Shown here piece by piece: positions 298 to 39,129 of a stretch of 64,000 nucleotides of DNA. The notes under the pieces were generated by a model. It worked only from the letters and a program-made list of their open reading frames with translations, had not been told where the DNA came from and did no database searches. How positions within the stretch are numbered: the stretch's first letter is position 1; each line of letters opens with the position of its first letter. The stretch lies in the IMG/VR virus record IMGVR_UViG_3300033995_001164, positions 1 to 64,000 of that record; one strand, 5' to 3'. A program made the position numbers and the translations under genes. The stretch comes from a virus.

Positions 298-376
298 CTG
301 GTAACGTTTGTCGCTTGTACTAATCGGCTATGCGGTTGCGTATATTCTGCCGATTAGTACAAACGATTGTTGCCAG
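298..376. repeat. 79-nt two-part hairpin element
   Basis: An outer 8-bp stem (298-305 with 369-376, one G-T pair) encloses an asymmetric internal loop and a perfect 14-bp inner stem (315-328 with 349-362) with a 20-nt loop. It is richer in G+C than its surroundings and has no T-run, so it is not a simple terminator. The outer stem has AAC on the left and GTT on the right, like the elements at 12.36-13.16 kb. Confidence 0.75.
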
Positions 377-4443: not shown

Positions 4444-4719
4444 ATGAAATATATTATAACAGAACAACAAAATAAAAATTTGATTGAATTAATGAAGAAA
4501 TTTGCTAATCAATACTCGGAAGAACGAGTAATTCAAACAGATGTTGAAATTGAATATTCTCCGGAAAAAGATTTGTATATTTTATACCCCATTTTTTATG
4601 TAAAAAATAAAAAAAATTTCCCACATTATATCTATAAACATAGGTTGTTAGAACGACTTGAGAATATGTTTGGTGTTTCGGTTCATTCCACACCTGTAAG
4701 AGTTAAAGAAATCAATTAA
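4444..4719 (+). CDS. Putative virion-packaged protein with MKYIITE leader
   Basis: Ninety-one residues starting MKYIITEQQNKNLIELMKKF; the start at 4444 is chosen over 4393 because it restores the shared leader and directly follows the previous stop. The C-terminal part (RLLERLENMFGVSVHS) resembles that of the small protein at 8425, hinting at a common small fold. Function after the putative leader cleavage is unknown. Confidence 0.75.
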   Translation: MKYIITEQQNKNLIELMKKFANQYSEERVIQTDVEIEYSPEKDLYILYPIFYVKNKKNFPHYIYKHRLLERLENMFGVSVHSTPVRVKEIN

Positions 4720-4720
4720 C

Positions 4721-5119
4721 ATGAAATATATTATAACAGAAACTCAATACAATACCATTGTTGAAGGTAATAAACGAATTGATGCGTTTCAAGAATTTAT
4801 CAATCGAGAGATTAATTCAATTAAAGAAGAGTGCGGATTTAATCCTGAGACAGGAGATTATGATGATAATACTGAAGACTTTAAACTTTGTGACGAAGTC
4901 TCAAGTATTGAACACATAATTGTTAAAGATGTTGAAACTTTTTCAGCACATAAAGTTACATCAATAACTATTAAAGTTGTTATTATATATGATTTTTTCA
5001 AATACAAAGACTATGACTCAGTTATTTATGAATTAGAATATTCAATTAAGAAGTCCACCGGATTACCTATCAAACTTGAATATGAATCCCGTAATCTAAA
5101 GTCAGATTTTCAATGGTAA
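4721..5119 (+). CDS. Putative virion-packaged protein with MKYIITE leader
   Basis: A 132-residue protein starting MKYIITETQYNTIVEGNKR. It is the third consecutive gene with this leader. The body is rich in beta-strand-like alternations (SITIKVVIIYDFFKY, YELEYSIKKSTG). No catalytic motif is visible. A terminator follows at 5153-5187. Confidence 0.75.
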   Translation: MKYIITETQYNTIVEGNKRIDAFQEFINREINSIKEECGFNPETGDYDDNTEDFKLCDEVSSIEHIIVKDVETFSAHKVTSITIKVVIIYDFFKYKDYDSVIYELEYSIKKSTGLPIKLEYESRNLKSDFQW

Positions 5120-5622: not shown

Positions 5623-6148
5623 ACTTTACATCTATTTCTAAATGAGTCAGTCCATTTTCTTTTTTATAATCTTCCAAGAATTTTCTAATGTTATTATACT
5701 TGTTTAACACTTCCTCATAGGTTGAATTTAAATTAGGATTACTTCTAAGACGAACTATAACCTTTGGTGTTACAACATCACTTGTATCAAATTTAATTGA
5801 AGTAATCATTGGGAAATATTCACTTTTTTTAAAGTATTTTTTTAAATCAGGTAATAACTTTTTAGCGAATAATTCTTTATTCTTATATTTAACAAAATAG
5901 TTAATATTATCAATTCCAAACATCTTAGGACTCATTTTATTTATATTACTTCTAAGAATATCCGCATTAGGGACTTTACCATCCACAACATCTTCAATGT
6001 CTATCCAAATAGAATAAAAGATAGAACTTTTGGTGTTATGATTAAAAATACTGACAATGCGAATATCATCAACACCAAGTTCTTTAATTTGGTCCAAATA
6101 ATATCGGTAATTCTTCGGTAATTCTTCGTATTTTAAATAATCCGTCAT
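5621..6148 (-). CDS. Conserved phage protein, unknown
   Basis: A 175-residue protein starting MTDYLKYEELPKNYRYYLDQ and ending THLEIDVK. It has regular alternation of charged helices and strands (VTPKVIVRLRSNPN) but no motif I can name. It is the last gene of a minus-strand run that includes several leader-bearing proteins, starting 2 bases after the preceding stop. Confidence 0.65.
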   Translation of the reverse strand: MTDYLKYEELPKNYRYYLDQIKELGVDDIRIVSIFNHNTKSSIFYSIWIDIEDVVDGKVPNADILRSNINKMSPKMFGIDNINYFVKYKNKELFAKKLLPDLKKYFKKSEYFPMITSIKFDTSDVVTPKVIVRLRSNPNLNSTYEEVLNKYNNIRKFLEDYKKENGLTHLEIDVK

Positions 6149-6150
6149 GA

Positions 6151-6771
6151 TTAATTATTTAATTGTATATTATAAACACTTCTGTATCTATGTTTTAAAC
6201 CATCATCACTAAATTTTTCAATCTCACTACGCGTATAAGCGGTATTATCGTCAAGATAATCAATCATTTCTTCTCTACTCAAATTATCAGTATCGATATT
6301 CTGATAACATTTACGAGTAGAATCAGTTTCATGGGTCTCGTCAATCTCTATTTCCGGATGACCTATCTCTTGAGCAAACTTGGTAGTGTATTTATCATCA
6401 TACCATTCAGTAATAACATTCAATATAAAGGATTTCCTAACTAATAACATTTTAGTTAAAAATTCAATTATTTCTTTATCAACATATAAATCACCAGCAA
6501 AAAACTTATTCTCCTCAACATAATCGGGTCCAATATTTTCAAATTCCTCATCATTACCAAAATGGTACCTCGCCTCAATAACAATCTTATCCCCATCACA
6601 CCATTCTTCATTATGGTTTCCATAATTCTCTTCAGTAGGTGGAGTGACTCGTGTTGTGTTAGAAATAATCTTCTCCATATGTTTTTTGATAAAGTTTTCT
6701 TTCTCAACATTTCCTTTAGTAAATCTTTTACTAACTTCTTCCCTTAACACTTTTCTAATTAAATCTTTCAT
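6151..6771 (-). CDS. Acidic protein with MKDLIRKVLREE leader
   Basis: A 206-residue protein. The N-terminus MKDLIRKVLREEVSKRF is a short basic helix ending LRE-E, an (L/I)xE site of the prohead-protease type, as in the 50442 gene (VLNEE). The body is acidic with a conserved-looking YHFGNDEEFENIGPDYVEE segment. I infer packaging in the head; the activity is unknown. It overlaps the start of the upstream gene by 17 bases. Confidence 0.65.
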   Translation of the reverse strand: MKDLIRKVLREEVSKRFTKGNVEKENFIKKHMEKIISNTTRVTPPTEENYGNHNEEWCDGDKIVIEARYHFGNDEEFENIGPDYVEENKFFAGDLYVDKEIIEFLTKMLLVRKSFILNVITEWYDDKYTTKFAQEIGHPEIEIDETHETDSTRKCYQNIDTDNLSREEMIDYLDDNTAYTRSEIEKFSDDGLKHRYRSVYNIQLNN

Positions 6772-7117: not shown

Positions 7118-7986
7118 AATTGATTTGATTGCCAATAGTCTCTAATATGTTCATAAAAGTTACTACGAATATATTGTTTTATCTGATTTCTAAAGGTAAT
7201 GTATTCATCATCATCCAAATTCAATTCATTTGCCATTTCAACAGCTACATTATCTGCGATATGTAATATCAAATGGTCTAATGGGACATAATGTAAATCA
7301 TTTTGAAGTTTGGCCATCATAAGTTGATTATCAATTCTGTGTTTCATATCTGATTCTCTCCTAACTAATCGATACTTATCTTCTTTTAGTATTCTAAATC
7401 TTAAGAGTGGTTTACCATTGATTGTTATATCACCCTTTTCATTCTTATCAATCGTCTTAACAACAATTTTTTTATTCTTAAACTTCCCACCCATTATTGT
7501 ATCACCAACATTGATGTCCAATTTAATCATCTCACTCAATGTTAATTCAGTTTCATCATTATCATATGGTGTGTACTGTCCATCACCTTTATGAATTAAT
7601 TTAACAGAGTCTTTAGGAATATCATCAAAAGTAACAATATGTTTATACTCATCATCAAAATGTGCATCTTTATACCATTGAACATTGGCTCTTTCAGTAT
7701 CAATAACCCATATATCATCACCAATTGTTGAGTCAAACATATCTTTCTTTTTTAGACTATTTGTGGCAAATACTGCCGGCACACATTCTTCTTCATCACT
7801 ATATTCACTAGCAGCATGAGATAAATAACAATCACCCAAACCTGTTCTAATACCATAGTCCATTATACTATCTCGATTTCTTCTATTTGAAGCATGAACA
7901 ACATATTTTCCGGGAGTAACTTCTTCACCCTTAACCCTTTGTTCTTGTAATCTCACATACTGAGATTCAGTTATTTTTATCTTCAT
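7114..7986 (-). CDS. Putative packaged ADP-ribosyltransferase-like protein
   Basis: A 290-residue protein starting MKIKITESQYVRLQEQ; the extra 18 codons to 8040 would remove the leader and overlap the promoter. After the leader comes YVVHASNRRNRDSIMDYGI, then AVFATNS and FDDIPKDSVKLIH. This order (His-Ala-Ser near a GI turn, a beta strand with A-T-N, then an IPxxxV segment) resembles ADP-ribosyltransferase-fold proteins, but I cannot prove the catalytic residues. T4 packages such an enzyme (Alt) with the same type of leader. A TATCTTTG promoter lies 22 bases upstream. Confidence 0.5.
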   Translation of the reverse strand: MKIKITESQYVRLQEQRVKGEEVTPGKYVVHASNRRNRDSIMDYGIRTGLGDCYLSHAASEYSDEEECVPAVFATNSLKKKDMFDSTIGDDIWVIDTERANVQWYKDAHFDDEYKHIVTFDDIPKDSVKLIHKGDGQYTPYDNDETELTLSEMIKLDINVGDTIMGGKFKNKKIVVKTIDKNEKGDITINGKPLLRFRILKEDKYRLVRRESDMKHRIDNQLMMAKLQNDLHYVPLDHLILHIADNVAVEMANELNLDDDEYITFRNQIKQYIRSNFYEHIRDYWQSNQL

Positions 7987-11756: not shown

Positions 11757-12308
11757 TTACCAAAATAAAAACTTCTTCTTTCTTGATTCCGTAATTCTTG
11801 ATTGTTGTATATTAACATTTCTTGTAACTCTATCTATCTCCATCTCCCAAGCTCGTTTCATTCCTTCCTCTATTTCTCTATTAGTTTTCCATTCCCGATA
11901 CTGACGGTATTTTGGATGTCTAATTATCATATGATGCTGATAACCCCTACCACTCTCACCTATTCCATCCATTATCTCAAAATAACTAAAATGTTGATTT
12001 CTTCCATTAGTTATAATAACAATACTAAGATTAACCATGTCTCTTAAGTCAACCCAATCAAACAACATATCACAGGTTTCTAAAACACTTTCCAATTGTA
12101 TTGTCGGATTATTATAGACTCCTCGGAAAATGAATAGTAAATCATATCGATATTCATATCCACGCTCAATTAATTTACAATCTAATAAATTATCACCAAA
12201 AACCGGTGATAATTTATGTCGAATTAATTCGTTGAATATTTTAACAACCCGACACTCCGAATACATGTGATTCGTACTTCTATGTTGTTCAATACACCAT
12301 TCTTCCAT
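11757..12308 (-). CDS. Unknown protein downstream of structured element
   Basis: A 183-residue protein starting MEEWCIEQHRSTNHMYSE; the frame extends upstream to 12389, but the extension runs through the hairpin element at 12357 and is rejected. It contains RYDLLFIFRGVYNNP and a basic C-terminus with ITESRKKKFLFW. No family recognised. It is the last gene of the series separated by the three hairpin elements. Confidence 0.65.
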   Translation of the reverse strand: MEEWCIEQHRSTNHMYSECRVVKIFNELIRHKLSPVFGDNLLDCKLIERGYEYRYDLLFIFRGVYNNPTIQLESVLETCDMLFDWVDLRDMVNLSIVIITNGRNQHFSYFEIMDGIGESGRGYQHHMIIRHPKYRQYREWKTNREIEEGMKRAWEMEIDRVTRNVNIQQSRITESRKKKFLFW

Positions 12309-12348: not shown

Positions 12349-12400
12349 CCTAACAAATGATAAACAACATTAAAACGATTGTTTATCATCGGACGTTATA
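12349..12400 (-). repeat. Structured element copy 1
   Basis: An 11-bp stem (12357-12367 with 12379-12389) encloses the 11-nt loop CATTAAAACGA. On the plus strand TAACAA precedes the stem, and a 4-nt spacer then CGTTATA follows it. TAAC and GTTA can form an outer stem. The stem sequence differs from copies 2 and 3, but the loop, spacings and outer motif are the same. Confidence 0.85.
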
Positions 12401-12416
12401 TTCAATATCAAAAATT

Positions 12417-12659
12417 TTATGAGTTTATTATTTCAAAGTGTTCGTAGAATCTTCTTTCATCAAAACCAGTAGGATTTTCTTTTCCGTGTTTAGGATGTAT
12501 AACTGACATACCATTTCCAAATGGAGTTACCTCTTCAAAATAATCATATTCACTACCCATTTGAAAAGAAAATCTACCACCATTTAATTTAGAATTTTCG
12601 TCAAAGGAATCATCAATTAAAAACCAAGAAGATTCTTTAATACATTTACATTTTTTCAT
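12417..12659 (-). CDS. Small conserved phage protein (MKKCKCIKES type)
   Basis: Eighty residues starting MKKCKCIKESSWFLIDDSF and ending RRFYEHFEIINS. The pattern of an N-terminal CIK motif and C-terminal FxExxFYEHFE is that of a common small phage family of unknown function. The gene sits alone between elements 2 and 1. Confidence 0.7.
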   Translation of the reverse strand: MKKCKCIKESSWFLIDDSFDENSKLNGGRFSFQMGSEYDYFEEVTPFGNGMSVIHPKHGKENPTGFDERRFYEHFEIINS

Positions 12660-12685
12660 TTGTATAAAATTTTTGATACTAAATA

Positions 12686-12735
12686 TAACAAAGAATATGT
12701 GTCATTAAAACGAACACATATTCTCAGTCGTTATA
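12686..12735 (-). repeat. Structured element copy 2
   Basis: An 11-bp stem (12692-12702 with 12714-12724), the invariant loop CATTAAAACGA, a 4-nt spacer and CGTTATA at 12729-12735. TATAAC before the stem pairs with GTTATA after it. The outer right arm overlaps the last codons of the gene at 12724-13068. Confidence 0.85.
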
Positions 12736-13068
12736 AGTAATATTATTTTTTGTTATTATAGGTGAAGTAAAAAATGGAATTTCATTACTGATATTCCGTT
12801 CAAAACAAGTAATTGGTTCAAAAACCTCCGCTTTCTTTTTTAAATATTCACCTATTTCAGTTGTTGATAATTTATTTATTTTAGTTAAACTAATTTCAAT
12901 TTCCACTTTCTCTAAATCAATAATATCTACTTTAGAGTTTCGATTCTCTGAATCACCTAAAATAAACAAATTTCGTGTGATTTTTTTTCCATCACAAGTA
13001 AATACAACCCTTCTTAATGGTAGTTTTTGTTTAATGTCCCAAATACCTTCTTCTATTATTGTTTCCAT
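12724..13068 (-). CDS. Small unknown protein
   Basis: A 114-residue protein starting METIIEEGIWDIKQKLPLR and ending ITKNNITYND. The last codons lie inside structured element 2. It has alternating strands (VDIIDLEKVEIEISL) but no recognised motif. It sits between elements 3 and 2 in the same orientation as its neighbours. Confidence 0.65.
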   Translation of the reverse strand: METIIEEGIWDIKQKLPLRRVVFTCDGKKITRNLFILGDSENRNSKVDIIDLEKVEIEISLTKINKLSTTEIGEYLKKKAEVFEPITCFERNISNEIPFFTSPIITKNNITYND

Positions 13069-13109
13069 TTTTTACTTCATTAAATTTTTTTAAAAAATAA
13101 TACATACTT

Positions 13110-13160
13110 ATAACAACAAATAAAACACATTAAAACGATGTTTTATTTGCAACCGTTATA
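13110..13160 (-). repeat. Structured element copy 3
   Basis: An 11-bp stem (13117-13127 with 13139-13149), the invariant loop CATTAAAACGA, a 4-nt spacer and CGTTATA at 13154-13160. TTATAAC before the stem pairs with GTTATAA after it (7 bp). Confidence 0.85.
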
Positions 13161-13167
13161 AGTAATA

Positions 13168-13386
13168 TTATTTTTGTTTTGAGAATGTTGATATAACACT
13201 ATCAATAACTTCTTCTTTACTTCCAATATTCCACCAATCTGGATTTTGTTTCAGTTTATACTCTGGATTATCATTGTGATAAGTTTCTACCAAACCATCA
13301 ACCAATCCATTCCACGAAATATTGTTCTGTTCTAAAACTGAAACAATCTCCGCATATTTCATCATATTTTTTGACATTTCTTCCAT
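13168..13386 (-). CDS. Small unknown protein
   Basis: Seventy-two residues starting MEEMSKNMMKYAEIVSVLE, followed by NNISWNGLVDGLVETY. It ends TFSKQK just before structured element 3. A TACTTTTG promoter lies 14 bases upstream. It is the first gene of the element-separated series on the minus strand. Confidence 0.65.
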   Translation of the reverse strand: MEEMSKNMMKYAEIVSVLEQNNISWNGLVDGLVETYHNDNPEYKLKQNPDWWNIGSKEEVIDSVISTFSKQK

Positions 13387-24056: not shown

Positions 24057-24840
24057 GCTTAATACGATGAGAATACTCGTCTTATTGAGAATCTTTGGAA
24101 GTTTTATTGTTTGACTTCTTTTCCACACCCTTTTGGGATGTAATCCTCATTGCCGATTGGTTAGACCAATCACTTCTTACGATATCATCTACTCTCTCAT
24201 TATTCAACTCTCTTCAAGCTTGCGACCTGACTCCGGATTCGACTCCGTAGAGGTTTTTGGTAAGAATACATTCAGACTTGCGGTCTTTGTGTGCTATGGA
24301 CATCCCATAACTAAGTAGGCAACTTGTCAATGACATCGGGTAGACATTTTTGCTATGTTTCTTTTAGTTTTTCACCATATTGAAAATAGTAATTGTGTTG
24401 TGGATGTATTCAAGAAGTAGTCTACCATAAGCTTCGTATCCTTTTGAGACACAAAATACTAAACTTCTCGATGAGATATCCCTATCTCCAAATTTCAAGA
24501 ATTCTTCAAATCAACATCTTGGTAGATGTTTGATAAGGACAAAGTCAGCACCACCTGTTACTTAATCTTGCCTTTCGGCGTTAAGATTCCTTTAATTTTG
24601 GAACTCGCAATTATAAGGTTGGATGACCTTACTTCTCACATAATTCCTATGAGTTATTCTTAATTTGGGGTTCCCCCCTCAACCGAAAGACCCACATCTC
24701 CCGGTCAGTAATCCATTTCCCTACGAAGTTATCCTCGGTACTACAGGCTCACTGATATCTCACTTGTATACTCGAGCTCCCTTTCAGAAGCCCCAAACTT
24801 AATAACACAACTAAGTTCGGTTTATATTGATTTTCATCAA
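24057..24840 (-). ncRNA. Long structured non-coding RNA candidate
   Basis: About 780 bases without a convincing gene but full of short perfect hairpins: 24155-24161 with 24165-24171 (7 bp), an AGAC/GTCT hairpin near 24273, ACATCT/AGATGT near 24513, AAGGT/ACCTT near 24617, and GCC-GAAA-GGC on the minus strand near 24575 inside a longer AATCTT/AAGATT stem. A minus-strand frame near 24370-24560 is broken by a TGA. It ends at a terminator next to smpB, so an altered tmRNA is a natural guess, but I could not build a tRNA-like domain or a tag frame. Confidence 0.5.
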
Positions 24841-25125: not shown

Positions 25126-25138
25126 AGTAAACTATTTG

Positions 25139-25229
25139 TGGTATCGGCGGGGTTCGAACCTGCGACACAGAGACTTTCGAGACTCCTGCTCTACCAAGGA
25201 AGATAAATCCCCCACTGAGCTACAATACC
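25139..25229 (-). tRNA. tRNA with expanded D-loop (anticodon uncertain)
   Basis: Ninety-one bases. The acceptor stem is perfect apart from one G-T pair (25223-25229 with 25140-25146), the D-stem GCTC/GAGC is intact, and the T-loop TTCGAAC is canonical. Departures: ~16 extra bases in the D-loop, one A-C mismatch in the T-stem, and an anticodon arm with one extra base and weak pairing. The anticodon could be GAA (Phe) with an extra C, or CGA. No CCA is encoded. Confidence 0.55.
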
Positions 25230-26142: not shown

Positions 26143-26185
26143 ATCACCAAAAGTCAATACCTTTGTTATTTTTTTTTTTAATTCG

Positions 26186-26272
26186 TAGTCAGGACAGGAT
26201 TCGAACCTGTATGAGTTTATTTCATCTCCACTCCTTAATAGAGTTGCGTCTCTCCAATTCCGCCACCTGACT
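26186..26272 (-). tRNA. tRNA-Leu-like (probably UAA)
   Basis: Eighty-seven bases with a perfect 7-bp acceptor (AGTCAGG/CCTGACT), discriminator A, perfect T-arm (ACAGG-TTCGAAT-CCTGT), the leucine-type GTGGCGGAATTGG D-region and a class II variable arm. The anticodon arm is irregular: ACTCT-ATTAA-GGAGT gives only a 5-base loop, or a 7-base loop with A at position 33. UAA (Leu) is the likeliest anticodon by analogy. No CCA is encoded. Confidence 0.6.
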
Positions 26273-27760: not shown

Positions 27761-27775
27761 TTAATTTAATCTTTG

Positions 27776-27868
27776 TAGTCAGGAGAGGAATCGAACCTCT
27801 CTACAGGGAGCTACCCGTCATCCATAACCTTCCATCGGACTCGAACCGACCTTGTATCCAACCTGACT
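27776..27868 (-). tRNA. tRNA-like RNA with a second T-arm-like hairpin
   Basis: Ninety-three bases. The acceptor AGTCAGG/CCTGACT and T-arm AGAGG-TTCGATT-CCTCT are perfect. The interior contains a further T-arm-like hairpin (GTCGG-TTCGAGT-CCGAT) where the D-arm should be, and a GGG-TAGCT-CCC hairpin near the variable-arm position. No anticodon arm can be drawn with confidence. Confidence 0.45.
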
Positions 27869-31445: not shown

Positions 31446-32297
31446 CTATTTTAATTCTAATTCAATTTGTTCTCGTTCTCTAATAAAATTTTTAATTCTA
31501 TTTCTTGCGACCTCACAATAACCCGGAGATACTTCAATTCCAATCCATCTGCGGCCCAACGTTTCAGCACTGACCGCCGAAGTCCCGCTACCCATGAAGG
31601 GGTCAAGAACAATATCGTTCTTATAAGATAATATCTTAATCGCTTTGCTCGGAATGTCTAAACTAAATGTTGCCTTGGTTAATGATTTAGTATCTGCAAA
31701 GTATTCCCACCTTCCAAAAACCAAGTTCATAAACTCTTTCTTATCCTCATCTTTATAAACCATTTTATTTTTAATGGTTCCGTCTTCTTGAATTACTTTA
31801 GTTGGGTTTCCCGTCCATTGAGATTCACCTTTGGTTAATTTTTTACTTGTCTTCTTATAAGCCAATATAATACATTCTTTTGGGTTATAGATATAGGGAC
31901 TGGATGCTGACATCCACGAACCCCAAGCGGTTTGTCTCACTCTATGTGGTGAATCTTCAGTTAAATCAACCATCCCGTAGAACTTAAACCCGACTTCCTT
32001 CATCTTCATCCAAAATTCAGCGTTGAATAGTATTCTCCCACCTCTTTCTTGAACATTCACTTCTATTGGAACATTGATAGCAATTCTTCCGTCATCCTTT
32101 AATACTCTATACGCTTCAGTTAACCATTTTGTTGTAAAATCCCAATATTCATCCATTGGAATACTATCGTTATAGACATCGTATTTGATGTTAACTGAAT
32201 ATGGAGGACTAGTCACCACTAAATCCACACAACCTTCAGGAAATGTTCCCATAACCTCAACACACTCACCATTTATAATCTTTCCTGTTTCTATCAT
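31446..32297 (-). CDS. DNA methyltransferase, beta-type (N4-C or N6-A)
   Basis: A 283-residue protein. Motif IV is DLVVTSPPYSVN near residue 26, and motif I is VLDPFMGSGTSAVSAETLGR near residue 233, the order of beta-class amino methyltransferases. TSPPY is seen in both N4-cytosine and N6-adenine enzymes. No partner restriction gene is adjacent. Probable role is protecting phage DNA. Confidence 0.85.
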   Translation of the reverse strand: MIETGKIINGECVEVMGTFPEGCVDLVVTSPPYSVNIKYDVYNDSIPMDEYWDFTTKWLTEAYRVLKDDGRIAINVPIEVNVQERGGRILFNAEFWMKMKEVGFKFYGMVDLTEDSPHRVRQTAWGSWMSASSPYIYNPKECIILAYKKTSKKLTKGESQWTGNPTKVIQEDGTIKNKMVYKDEDKKEFMNLVFGRWEYFADTKSLTKATFSLDIPSKAIKILSYKNDIVLDPFMGSGTSAVSAETLGRRWIGIEVSPGYCEVARNRIKNFIREREQIELELK

Positions 32298-38833: not shown

Positions 38834-39129
38834 ATTATACCAATTTTCTTTCTATGTTGATTAATAATATCAACCGCTTCAGTTAATTCGTTATAGTTTC
38901 TCTCCGGAGTATACAAGAACGATTCGTAGTTGGTATCATCCCCCTCAATAATCAGTAAGGCTGGAATCATATCATTTTCTGTTATTTGAGTGAAAGTATC
39001 ATACTCATCTTTGTATTTATCAATATCCCGGTCAAAAAATTCTATACCTTCCTTGGTTAGTATTTTTTTGAAATCTACACAGAAAGGACATCCCTTCATT
39101 GTGTAGACTATAACATTTAAATCTTTCAT
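38830..39129 (-). CDS. Glutaredoxin
   Basis: Ninety-nine residues. VIVYTMKGCPFCVDFKKIL holds the CPFC active site at residues ~15-18, and IPALLI supplies the cis-Pro loop. Phage glutaredoxins supply electrons to ribonucleotide reductase. Next to thioredoxin. Confidence 0.85.
   Translation of the reverse strand: MKDLNVIVYTMKGCPFCVDFKKILTKEGIEFFDRDIDKYKDEYDTFTQITENDMIPALLIIEGDDTNYESFLYTPERNYNELTEAVDIINQHRKKIGII

Follow-up and report, generated by a model that had tools for sequence, protein, structure and literature searches.

Hairpin sites and small genes at the locus

The DNA stretch analysed here (the window) comprises bases 1–64000 of a 309,177-bp virus record, IMGVR_UViG_3300033995_001164, which we call G000. 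Within it lie three hairpins between small genes, which are very probably attC-like recombination sites of a phage-borne, integron-like gene-cassette system run by a recombinase of the Xer/IntI type. All three are on the plus strand, and inspection of the sequence gives one common plan, TAAC-AA-11-bp stem-CATTAAAACGA-11-bp stem-N4-CGTTA; the canonical ends of attC are TAACAA...CGTTA. Site 1 (12351..12398; covariance-model score, 62.9 bits) is made up of TAAC at 12351–12354, stem arms at 12357–12367 and 12379–12389, a loop at 12368–12378, the spacer CGGA and GTTA at 12395–12398. Site 2 (12686..12733; 63.0 bits) has its loop at 12703–12713, and site 3 (13111..13158; 68.4 bits) at 13128–13138. 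Direct reading thus bears out the shared geometry that had been claimed from the sequence alone (the original prediction). TATAAC, said there to precede each hairpin, is present at copies 2 and 3 and replaced by CCTAAC at copy 1. DNA folding recovers the outer stem on both strands of sites 2 and 3 and on one strand of site 1, with z values for site 3 of −6.5 and −6.2 on its two strands. Alignment and DNA folds together show a folded strand with an unpaired central spacer and a terminal structure, as in attC.

To gauge chance expectation, we counted parts of the plan separately. The exact loop occurs three times in the window, and loops with up to two mismatches occur 41 times, compared to 48.5 expected. 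The loop at this tolerance is therefore at chance level, and it is the complete plan that counts. Perfect hairpins with an 11-bp stem and an 11-nt loop number four in the window, versus a mean of 0.05 in 20 dinucleotide shuffles. Our site finder accepts four sites (sites 1–3 and one at 302..372), versus 0.1 per shuffled window (40 shuffles). The further attC-like site, on the minus strand at the window edge, has a longer loop. Its own ends, CTGGCAAC and GTTACCAG, nearly match each other, as in a lone cassette or a closed site.

The sites delimit cassettes. The one between sites 1 and 2 (12395..12730, plus strand), with a putative G|TT crossover at both ends, begins with GTTATATT, complementary to its end AATATAAC, and holds an 80-aa gene without family match (12417..12659, minus strand). 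The sequence between sites 2 and 3 forms a second cassette (12730..13155, plus strand; start GTTATAAGTA, complementary end TACTTATAAC), and the list of open reading frames (ORFs) gives it a 114-aa gene (12724..13068, minus strand) whose stop codon falls inside site 2. A third cassette starts with GTTATAAGTAATATT (13155..13386, minus strand) and carries a 72-aa gene at 13168–13386; the site finder returned no closing site for it. Pfam and PHROG scans of the window cassette genes gave no significant family. Because these genes are on the minus strand and crossover is at the GTTA side of the hairpin, the hairpin belonging to each cassette stands at the 5′ side of its gene, and the one at the 3′ side is the neighbouring cassette's. 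The original prediction, which had each copy at the 3′ side of a single small gene, was right about the cassettes and wrong about orientation. A viral locus (L009) has two sites at the spacing of window sites 1–2 with similar cassette ends, as judged from a comparison of spacing and ends.

Covariation and spread of the sites

A pattern scan of viral contigs without stem requirement gave at least 119 stretches. The exact loop occurs 185 times in the fetched loci (with the window's own record counted more than once), 137 times with at least eight uninterrupted stem pairs; the commonest stem among the viral loci is that of site 1. With a second pattern, bacterial genome contigs gave 81 stretches, some perhaps by chance, labelled mostly Bacteroidota, with a few Patescibacteria, Omnitrophota and others. 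In some bacterial arrays, short fixed-loop sites are mixed with longer sites in one orientation. BLAST with an 83-nt query matched two huge-phage records and no plasmid.

For covariation we aligned 65 sites, chosen by us from 120 distinct sites after prefiltering on length and on at least 6/9 Watson–Crick pairs. Compensatory changes are seen in 11/11 inner-stem pairs of this prefiltered set, which agrees with the earlier claim that the stems differ among copies while their pairing is conserved: in the three window sites, too, the 11-mers differ yet pair perfectly. Inner-stem covariation is 0.585, compared to 0.143 for shuffled and at most 0.129 for slid alignments. Standard pairs fill 91.3% of 975 cells, and G–U accounts for just 6 of the 890 standard pairs. 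Without the pairing filter, 140/147 distinct sites reach at least six Watson–Crick pairs among the nine nearest the loop, and there are 23 G–U in 1183 pairs, versus 111.5 with shuffled partners. RNA helices usually drift via G–U. The scarcity of G–U with and without the filter suggests that stem pairing has probably been selected in DNA. AAC and GTT are invariant in the 65 aligned sites, which were collected by a pattern that itself contained these letters.

Two kinds of variant may be recorded here. Sites of the same plan occur in contigs labelled Patescibacteria (L130, L137, L164 and L182; Uhrbacteria, Magasanikbacteria, Buchananbacteria). Gene-less 'cassettes' of the form GTTAnnnn-CATTAAAACGA-nnnnTAAC, with the loop sequence in the gene's place, are found in L031 near 4771, in L055 and L108, and in G000 at ∼235680–235708.

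A tyrosine recombinase gene beside the arrays

With two bacterial site-adjacent recombinases as query, we found nine viral loci with tyrosine recombinases of ∼265–280 aa, one enzyme being shortened internally; all nine loci have a site on the divergent side. A search of viral contigs with an alignment of these recombinases yielded 500 relatives, of which the best 80 were taken. The 80 loci include near-duplicates (e.g. L291/L293/L294, L285/L287 and L260/L261), so the counts are of non-independent events. Sites lie upstream of the recombinase start in 65 of the 68 loci with at least 600 nt there. Upstream of the gene, the 80 loci together have 306 sites (227 distinct), every one in the same orientation. 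On the other side, the counts for the two orientations are 3 and 1, and a reversed-sequence control gave 2. Among the few bacterial cases, integrase and sites run in the same direction in L227, L229 and L201, and L164 has a divergent integrase.

The hosts of these phages are probably mostly Bacteroidota, and the nearest annotated recombinases, <60% identical, are mainly in flavobacterial phages. Site-bearing contigs include records of 310,542, 281,114, 265,845 and 256,029 bases. G000 has a terminase gene, as do 12 of 29 recombinase-bearing records, which were chosen by us, mainly from the larger of the 80.

Upstream of the recombinase gene there is an attI-like motif ending in ...ATATATAATA|GTTA. 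The first cassette starts 22–124 nt before the recombinase start codon in 41 of 50 assignable loci (22–52 nt in 38 of these), mostly preceded by a near match to ATATATAATA. The loci L002 and L074 share the same sequence as far as GTTATA and diverge from there, each into a different first cassette, which places the crossover at or near GTT. The AAC/GTT box pair with crossover at G|TT is thus found here as in attC; homology breaks at or within GTT, the shared letters hiding the exact phosphate. An attI beside an integrase gene and a cassette array, as in integrons, is present in the related phages and absent from the window.

The phage enzyme (∼266 aa) is a tyrosine recombinase of the Xer/IntI type, with best matches to XerA-type proteins and with XerH and IntI4 close behind. 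The IntI profile TIGR02249 matches it in two blocks and scores 155.5 bits, below the cut-off of 265. In an alignment with IntI4, the segment that separates the two aligned blocks is 37 residues long in the phage enzyme and 85 in IntI4, so the additional domain of IntI (about 30 residues) does not fit there. The recombinase beside the arrays is therefore no classical IntI. According to parts of the literature, this domain is a mark of integron integrases, involved in single-strand binding (PMC7784347), and a complete integron is defined by an IntI that has it (PMC7784347, PMC9668308).

One bacterial contig, L230 (labelled Flavivirga jejuensis via L131), carries attC-like sites and four ORF stretches of equal length (579–917, 4652–4990, 6005–6343 and 7495–7833), each matching part of the recombinase.

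Cassette organisation and cargo

Phage cassettes have the form of a start, GTTAnnnn, complementary to their own end, nnnnTAAC. The complementarity extends over at least 10 nt in 93 of 206 distinct cassettes, compared to 2.1 by shuffling, and is limited to the fixed 3 nt in 21. In this respect, with an R″ complementary to their own start, they behave as attC cassettes do. Median length is 322 nt. GTTRRRY, the R box consensus, is seen at 20/206 cassette starts, and the window cassettes, which begin GTTATAT, GTTATAA and GTTATAA, do not fit it either; the departure from this consensus had been correctly anticipated. Among 179 phage cassettes that contain an ORF of at least 40 aa, the gene is oriented towards attI in 173, as it is in 339/350 of a wider, overlapping set, so the site is not at the 3′ end of the cassette gene as it is in integrons. 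One orientation count omitted a window cassette whose ORF crosses the site, and loci 120–123 and 205–226 were dropped as duplicates.

We scanned eight of the 284 families of cassette proteins, selected for their recognisable appearance. Four are methyltransferases (N6_N4_Mtase, MethyltransfD12, DNA_methylase and MT-A70), a share that is no rate given how the families were picked; the others are an RNA ligase, a YopX-family phage protein, a helix-turn-helix protein and one family without match. We also considered a promoter in each cassette. TAnnTTTGT is the −7 promoter motif of Bacteroidota, and it is enriched, occurring in 30/263 cassettes versus 5.9 in shuffled and 4 in reversed sequence. 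However, the shorter TAnnTTTG is commoner in reversed than in real sequence (54 versus 38). With the full motif in just 30 of the 263, these data do not show a promoter in every cassette.

Movement of cassettes in phage relatives

One CATTAAAACGA-ended cassette is 318/325 identical in two phage contigs, with breaks at C|GTTA and unrelated flanks (30/61 and 34/65 aligned columns). Among 361 cassettes there are eight homologous pairs with enough flank; two differ on both sides, three downstream only, and three are the same.

The clearest turnover is in the cultured Polaribacter phage Freya. Its ten isolates have seven genome lengths; we compared one isolate of each, the other three sharing a length with one of these. 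Outside inserts, the seven show 0–4 mismatches over ∼43.9 kb. Their arrays read none, A, BA, CBA, DBA, EDBA and EDA, with exact blocks that all enter at the same position, 46 nt away from where the recombinase gene is annotated to start. The series is nested, the newest block always being nearest the recombinase. Blocks range from 307 to 2891 nt, all start with GTT and contain one to several ORFs. EDA is most simply read as EDBA after clean loss of block B. This is the look expected of integron capture and excision. The Freya authors, in the part of their paper that bears on the integrase, see in it the potential for a temperate lifestyle, and the words 'integron' and 'cassette' were not found in the passages of that paper that were examined (PMC8776804). 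In block E (307 nt; Freya_8 and Freya_10), the site seems to cover most of its own gene: R″ falls within the ORF, and its partner arm lies past the start codon.

A recombinase remnant in the window's phage

A covariance model built from the sites, as had been proposed at the outset, finds five sites in G000, the three in the window and two near 235.6–236.2 kb. At 235174–235305, a 43-aa ORF matches positions 1–38 of the recombinase alignment (E-value 2.7e-5). Next come an attI-like ATTACATATATAACATA|GTTA, a cassette gene of 70 aa and additional sites. A tyrosine recombinase, for which the original prediction had proposed to look elsewhere in the genome, is thus there as a remnant; the 309-kb record, which may be incomplete, has no intact gene and no recombinase match beyond this remnant. 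Remnant, attI-like sequence and sites together suggest that the lineage probably once had the full system and that the record has lost most of the enzyme. Because the gene is truncated, the phage's clusters, including the window's three sites far from the remnant, are probably stranded, barring an enzyme supplied in trans.

Proposed mechanism and alternatives

Given these data, we hold with high confidence that the hairpins are sites at which cassettes recombine in an integron-like system driven by a recombinase. The recombinase and attI-like point beside the arrays of relatives, the remnant in G000 and the precise insertions in Freya all bear out the original prediction of attC-like sites between single-gene cassettes. 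In the scheme that we propose, the phage recombinase would join G|TT of a short attI-like sequence upstream of its own gene to G|TT of a hairpin site. Cassettes (GTTAnnnn ... nnnnTAAC plus hairpin) would thereby enter at attI, stack up and be subject to loss. The hairpin is likely recombined by the phage enzyme as a folded single strand. Here we infer the recombinase as catalyst, the passage of cassettes through circles, the folded single strand as substrate and the exact crossover phosphate.

Several observations weigh against this reading. In 9 of the 50 assignable loci, the best cassette start is at least 245 nt from the recombinase gene; these seem to be inner sites. The phage enzyme lacks a domain that is held necessary for IntI activity, as is reportedly stated in the title of Messier and Roy's 2001 paper. 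The Freya recombinase is just 38% identical to the window-type enzyme, and the site finder recognises just 0–2 sites per Freya isolate, so the turnover is shown in a relative and not in the window's phage. As Freya blocks have one to several ORFs, not all are single-gene cassettes. In G000 itself, no complete enzyme was found. Finally, the precise gain and loss predicted for related phages is seen at one point in the Freya isolates and not at the window array, where no single-cassette difference was found: three near-identical contigs are unchanged, and relatives with the conserved neighbouring tRNA nucleotidyltransferase gene (L334, L335 and L343) are missing the whole array region.

Of the alternatives, ordinary integron debris fares best, and we consider it unlikely. 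Under this explanation, the sites belong to clusters of attC sites lacking integron-integrases (CALINs), caught from host integrons by a classical IntI, and the neighbouring recombinase is a mere prophage integrase, much as the Freya authors took theirs. A CALIN has two or more attC sites and no integrase nearby; the window has three sites, and the one recombinase match of the record is the remnant at 235 kb, but the sites miss some attC features. Integrons and CALINs are indeed known in phages, according to parts of PMC9892861, with Polaribacter phage P12002L among them; of two sites tested from this phage, IntI1 recombined one, and our finder accepts four in its sequence. Two of the P12002L (L415) sites belong to the family described here (38879–38936 and 32223–32281). 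Against debris, the 306:0 polarity and the attI-like motif link the sites to the phage recombinase, and the Freya insertions lie 46 nt from the recombinase start codon. Furthermore, TIGR02249 scored above cut-off in none of the 48 site-bearing bacterial genomes searched (from 50 of the 81 bacterial loci submitted). Below the cut-off, it matched all 48, which might be taken for IntI; matches in 14/14 controls, also none above cut-off, indicate that these look generic.

A second alternative, homologous recombination or an HUH/Y1 transposase acting at short repeats with hairpins as by-products, is very improbable. In its favour, many genomes share these hairpins, which could act as short homologies. 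However, the Freya insertion point, always the same base, shares little beyond GTT with the block ends, and the constant neighbour is a tyrosine recombinase, no search having been aimed at HUH enzymes. That the hairpins are RNA elements (terminators, processing or regulatory hairpins), as the original prediction had allowed, is scarcely credible despite their intergenic position, strong hairpin and invariant loop, for G–U pairs are few, inverted ends enclose whole cassettes, polarity to the recombinase is fixed, and the sites have no Rfam match at gathering thresholds.

Beyond the locus, we lean, somewhat more than evenly, towards a widespread, unrecognised integron class at home in phages (probably of Bacteroidota; tens to >300 kb), in which an Xer-like recombinase handles folded hairpins without the IntI additional domain. 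If so, the additional domain and extrahelical bases would be a later, strand-selecting addition of bacterial integrons, or the two systems would have independent origins. Cassettes that face attI would also have their order and expression governed otherwise than in the Pc promoter model. Many phage contigs carry the system, methyltransferases are among its cargo, and the cultured isolates of one phage are almost identical apart from it; it would give phages a dedicated route for stepwise exchange of accessory genes. The need for the additional domain in hairpin recombination becomes testable in cultured phage.

Neighbouring features in the window

Left of site 1 is a 183-aa gene (11757..12308, minus strand). 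One relative (L350) has similar DNA and a 170-aa ORF at the same place, where the finder sees no site, so the 183-aa gene may be a resident gene and not cassette cargo. At Rfam gathering thresholds, the window gave only GOLLD and two tRNAs. The GOLLD RNA (284.7 bits; 24064–24471, minus strand) lies beside tRNA genes at 25138–25229, 26185–26272 and 27775–27868; for one of these tRNA genes, ARAGORN calls a four-base anticodon.

Comparison with known systems

We found no description of such a system among the titles and abstract openings listed from the open-access literature, a scope outside which preprints and most subscription papers fall. The nearest report is that of Qi et al. 2023 (PMC9892861), on phages with attC sites, gene cassettes and integron-integrase genes, including methyltransferase cassettes and a Polaribacter phage. 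As phage cases, parts of that work name CALINs, integrons of Vibrio and Shewanella, and a class 1 mosaic in P1; in the same parts, we found neither turnover among isolates nor an Xer-like enzyme dedicated to phages that has an attI and an array to itself. IntegronFinder, by the account in parts of PMC9668308, accepts an integrase only on a match to the IntI-specific domain profile, so the phage enzyme would be passed over even where sites are seen.

The phage enzyme itself can be set beside two known groups. Like IntI4 of Vibrio (PDB 2a3v), it has the fold and catalytic motifs (VIA Z 18.0, root-mean-square deviation 7.0, 261 residues), and it differs in the short segment between the blocks noted above. 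XerA works at a single dif-like site. XerA-type recombinases (NF040815; PDB 5hxy, 4a8e) are its best family and structure matches and of the same length class, whereas the phage enzyme adjoins cassette arrays.

The closest likeness is to attC sites and cassettes of integrons (class 1, Vibrio superintegrons). Both have AAC/GTT boxes, a C before GTT, an unpaired central spacer and a terminal loop; in both, crossover is consistent with G|TT, R″ is complementary to the cassette's own start, and insertion is at attI beside the recombinase. In contrast, the phage sites mostly lack GTTRRRY, one phage subfamily has a short invariant loop, the recombinase has no room for the additional domain, and cassette genes mostly face attI. 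Extrahelical bases on the R″–L″ arm, which steer strand choice in attC sites (PMC2727003, in part), are also missing, since the three window sites have perfect 11-bp inner stems. The joint absence of the additional domain and the extrahelical bases is suggestive, and we infer that the two go together. Because R box, orientation, additional domain and extrahelical bases all deviate, we use the names 'attC-like' and 'integron-like'.
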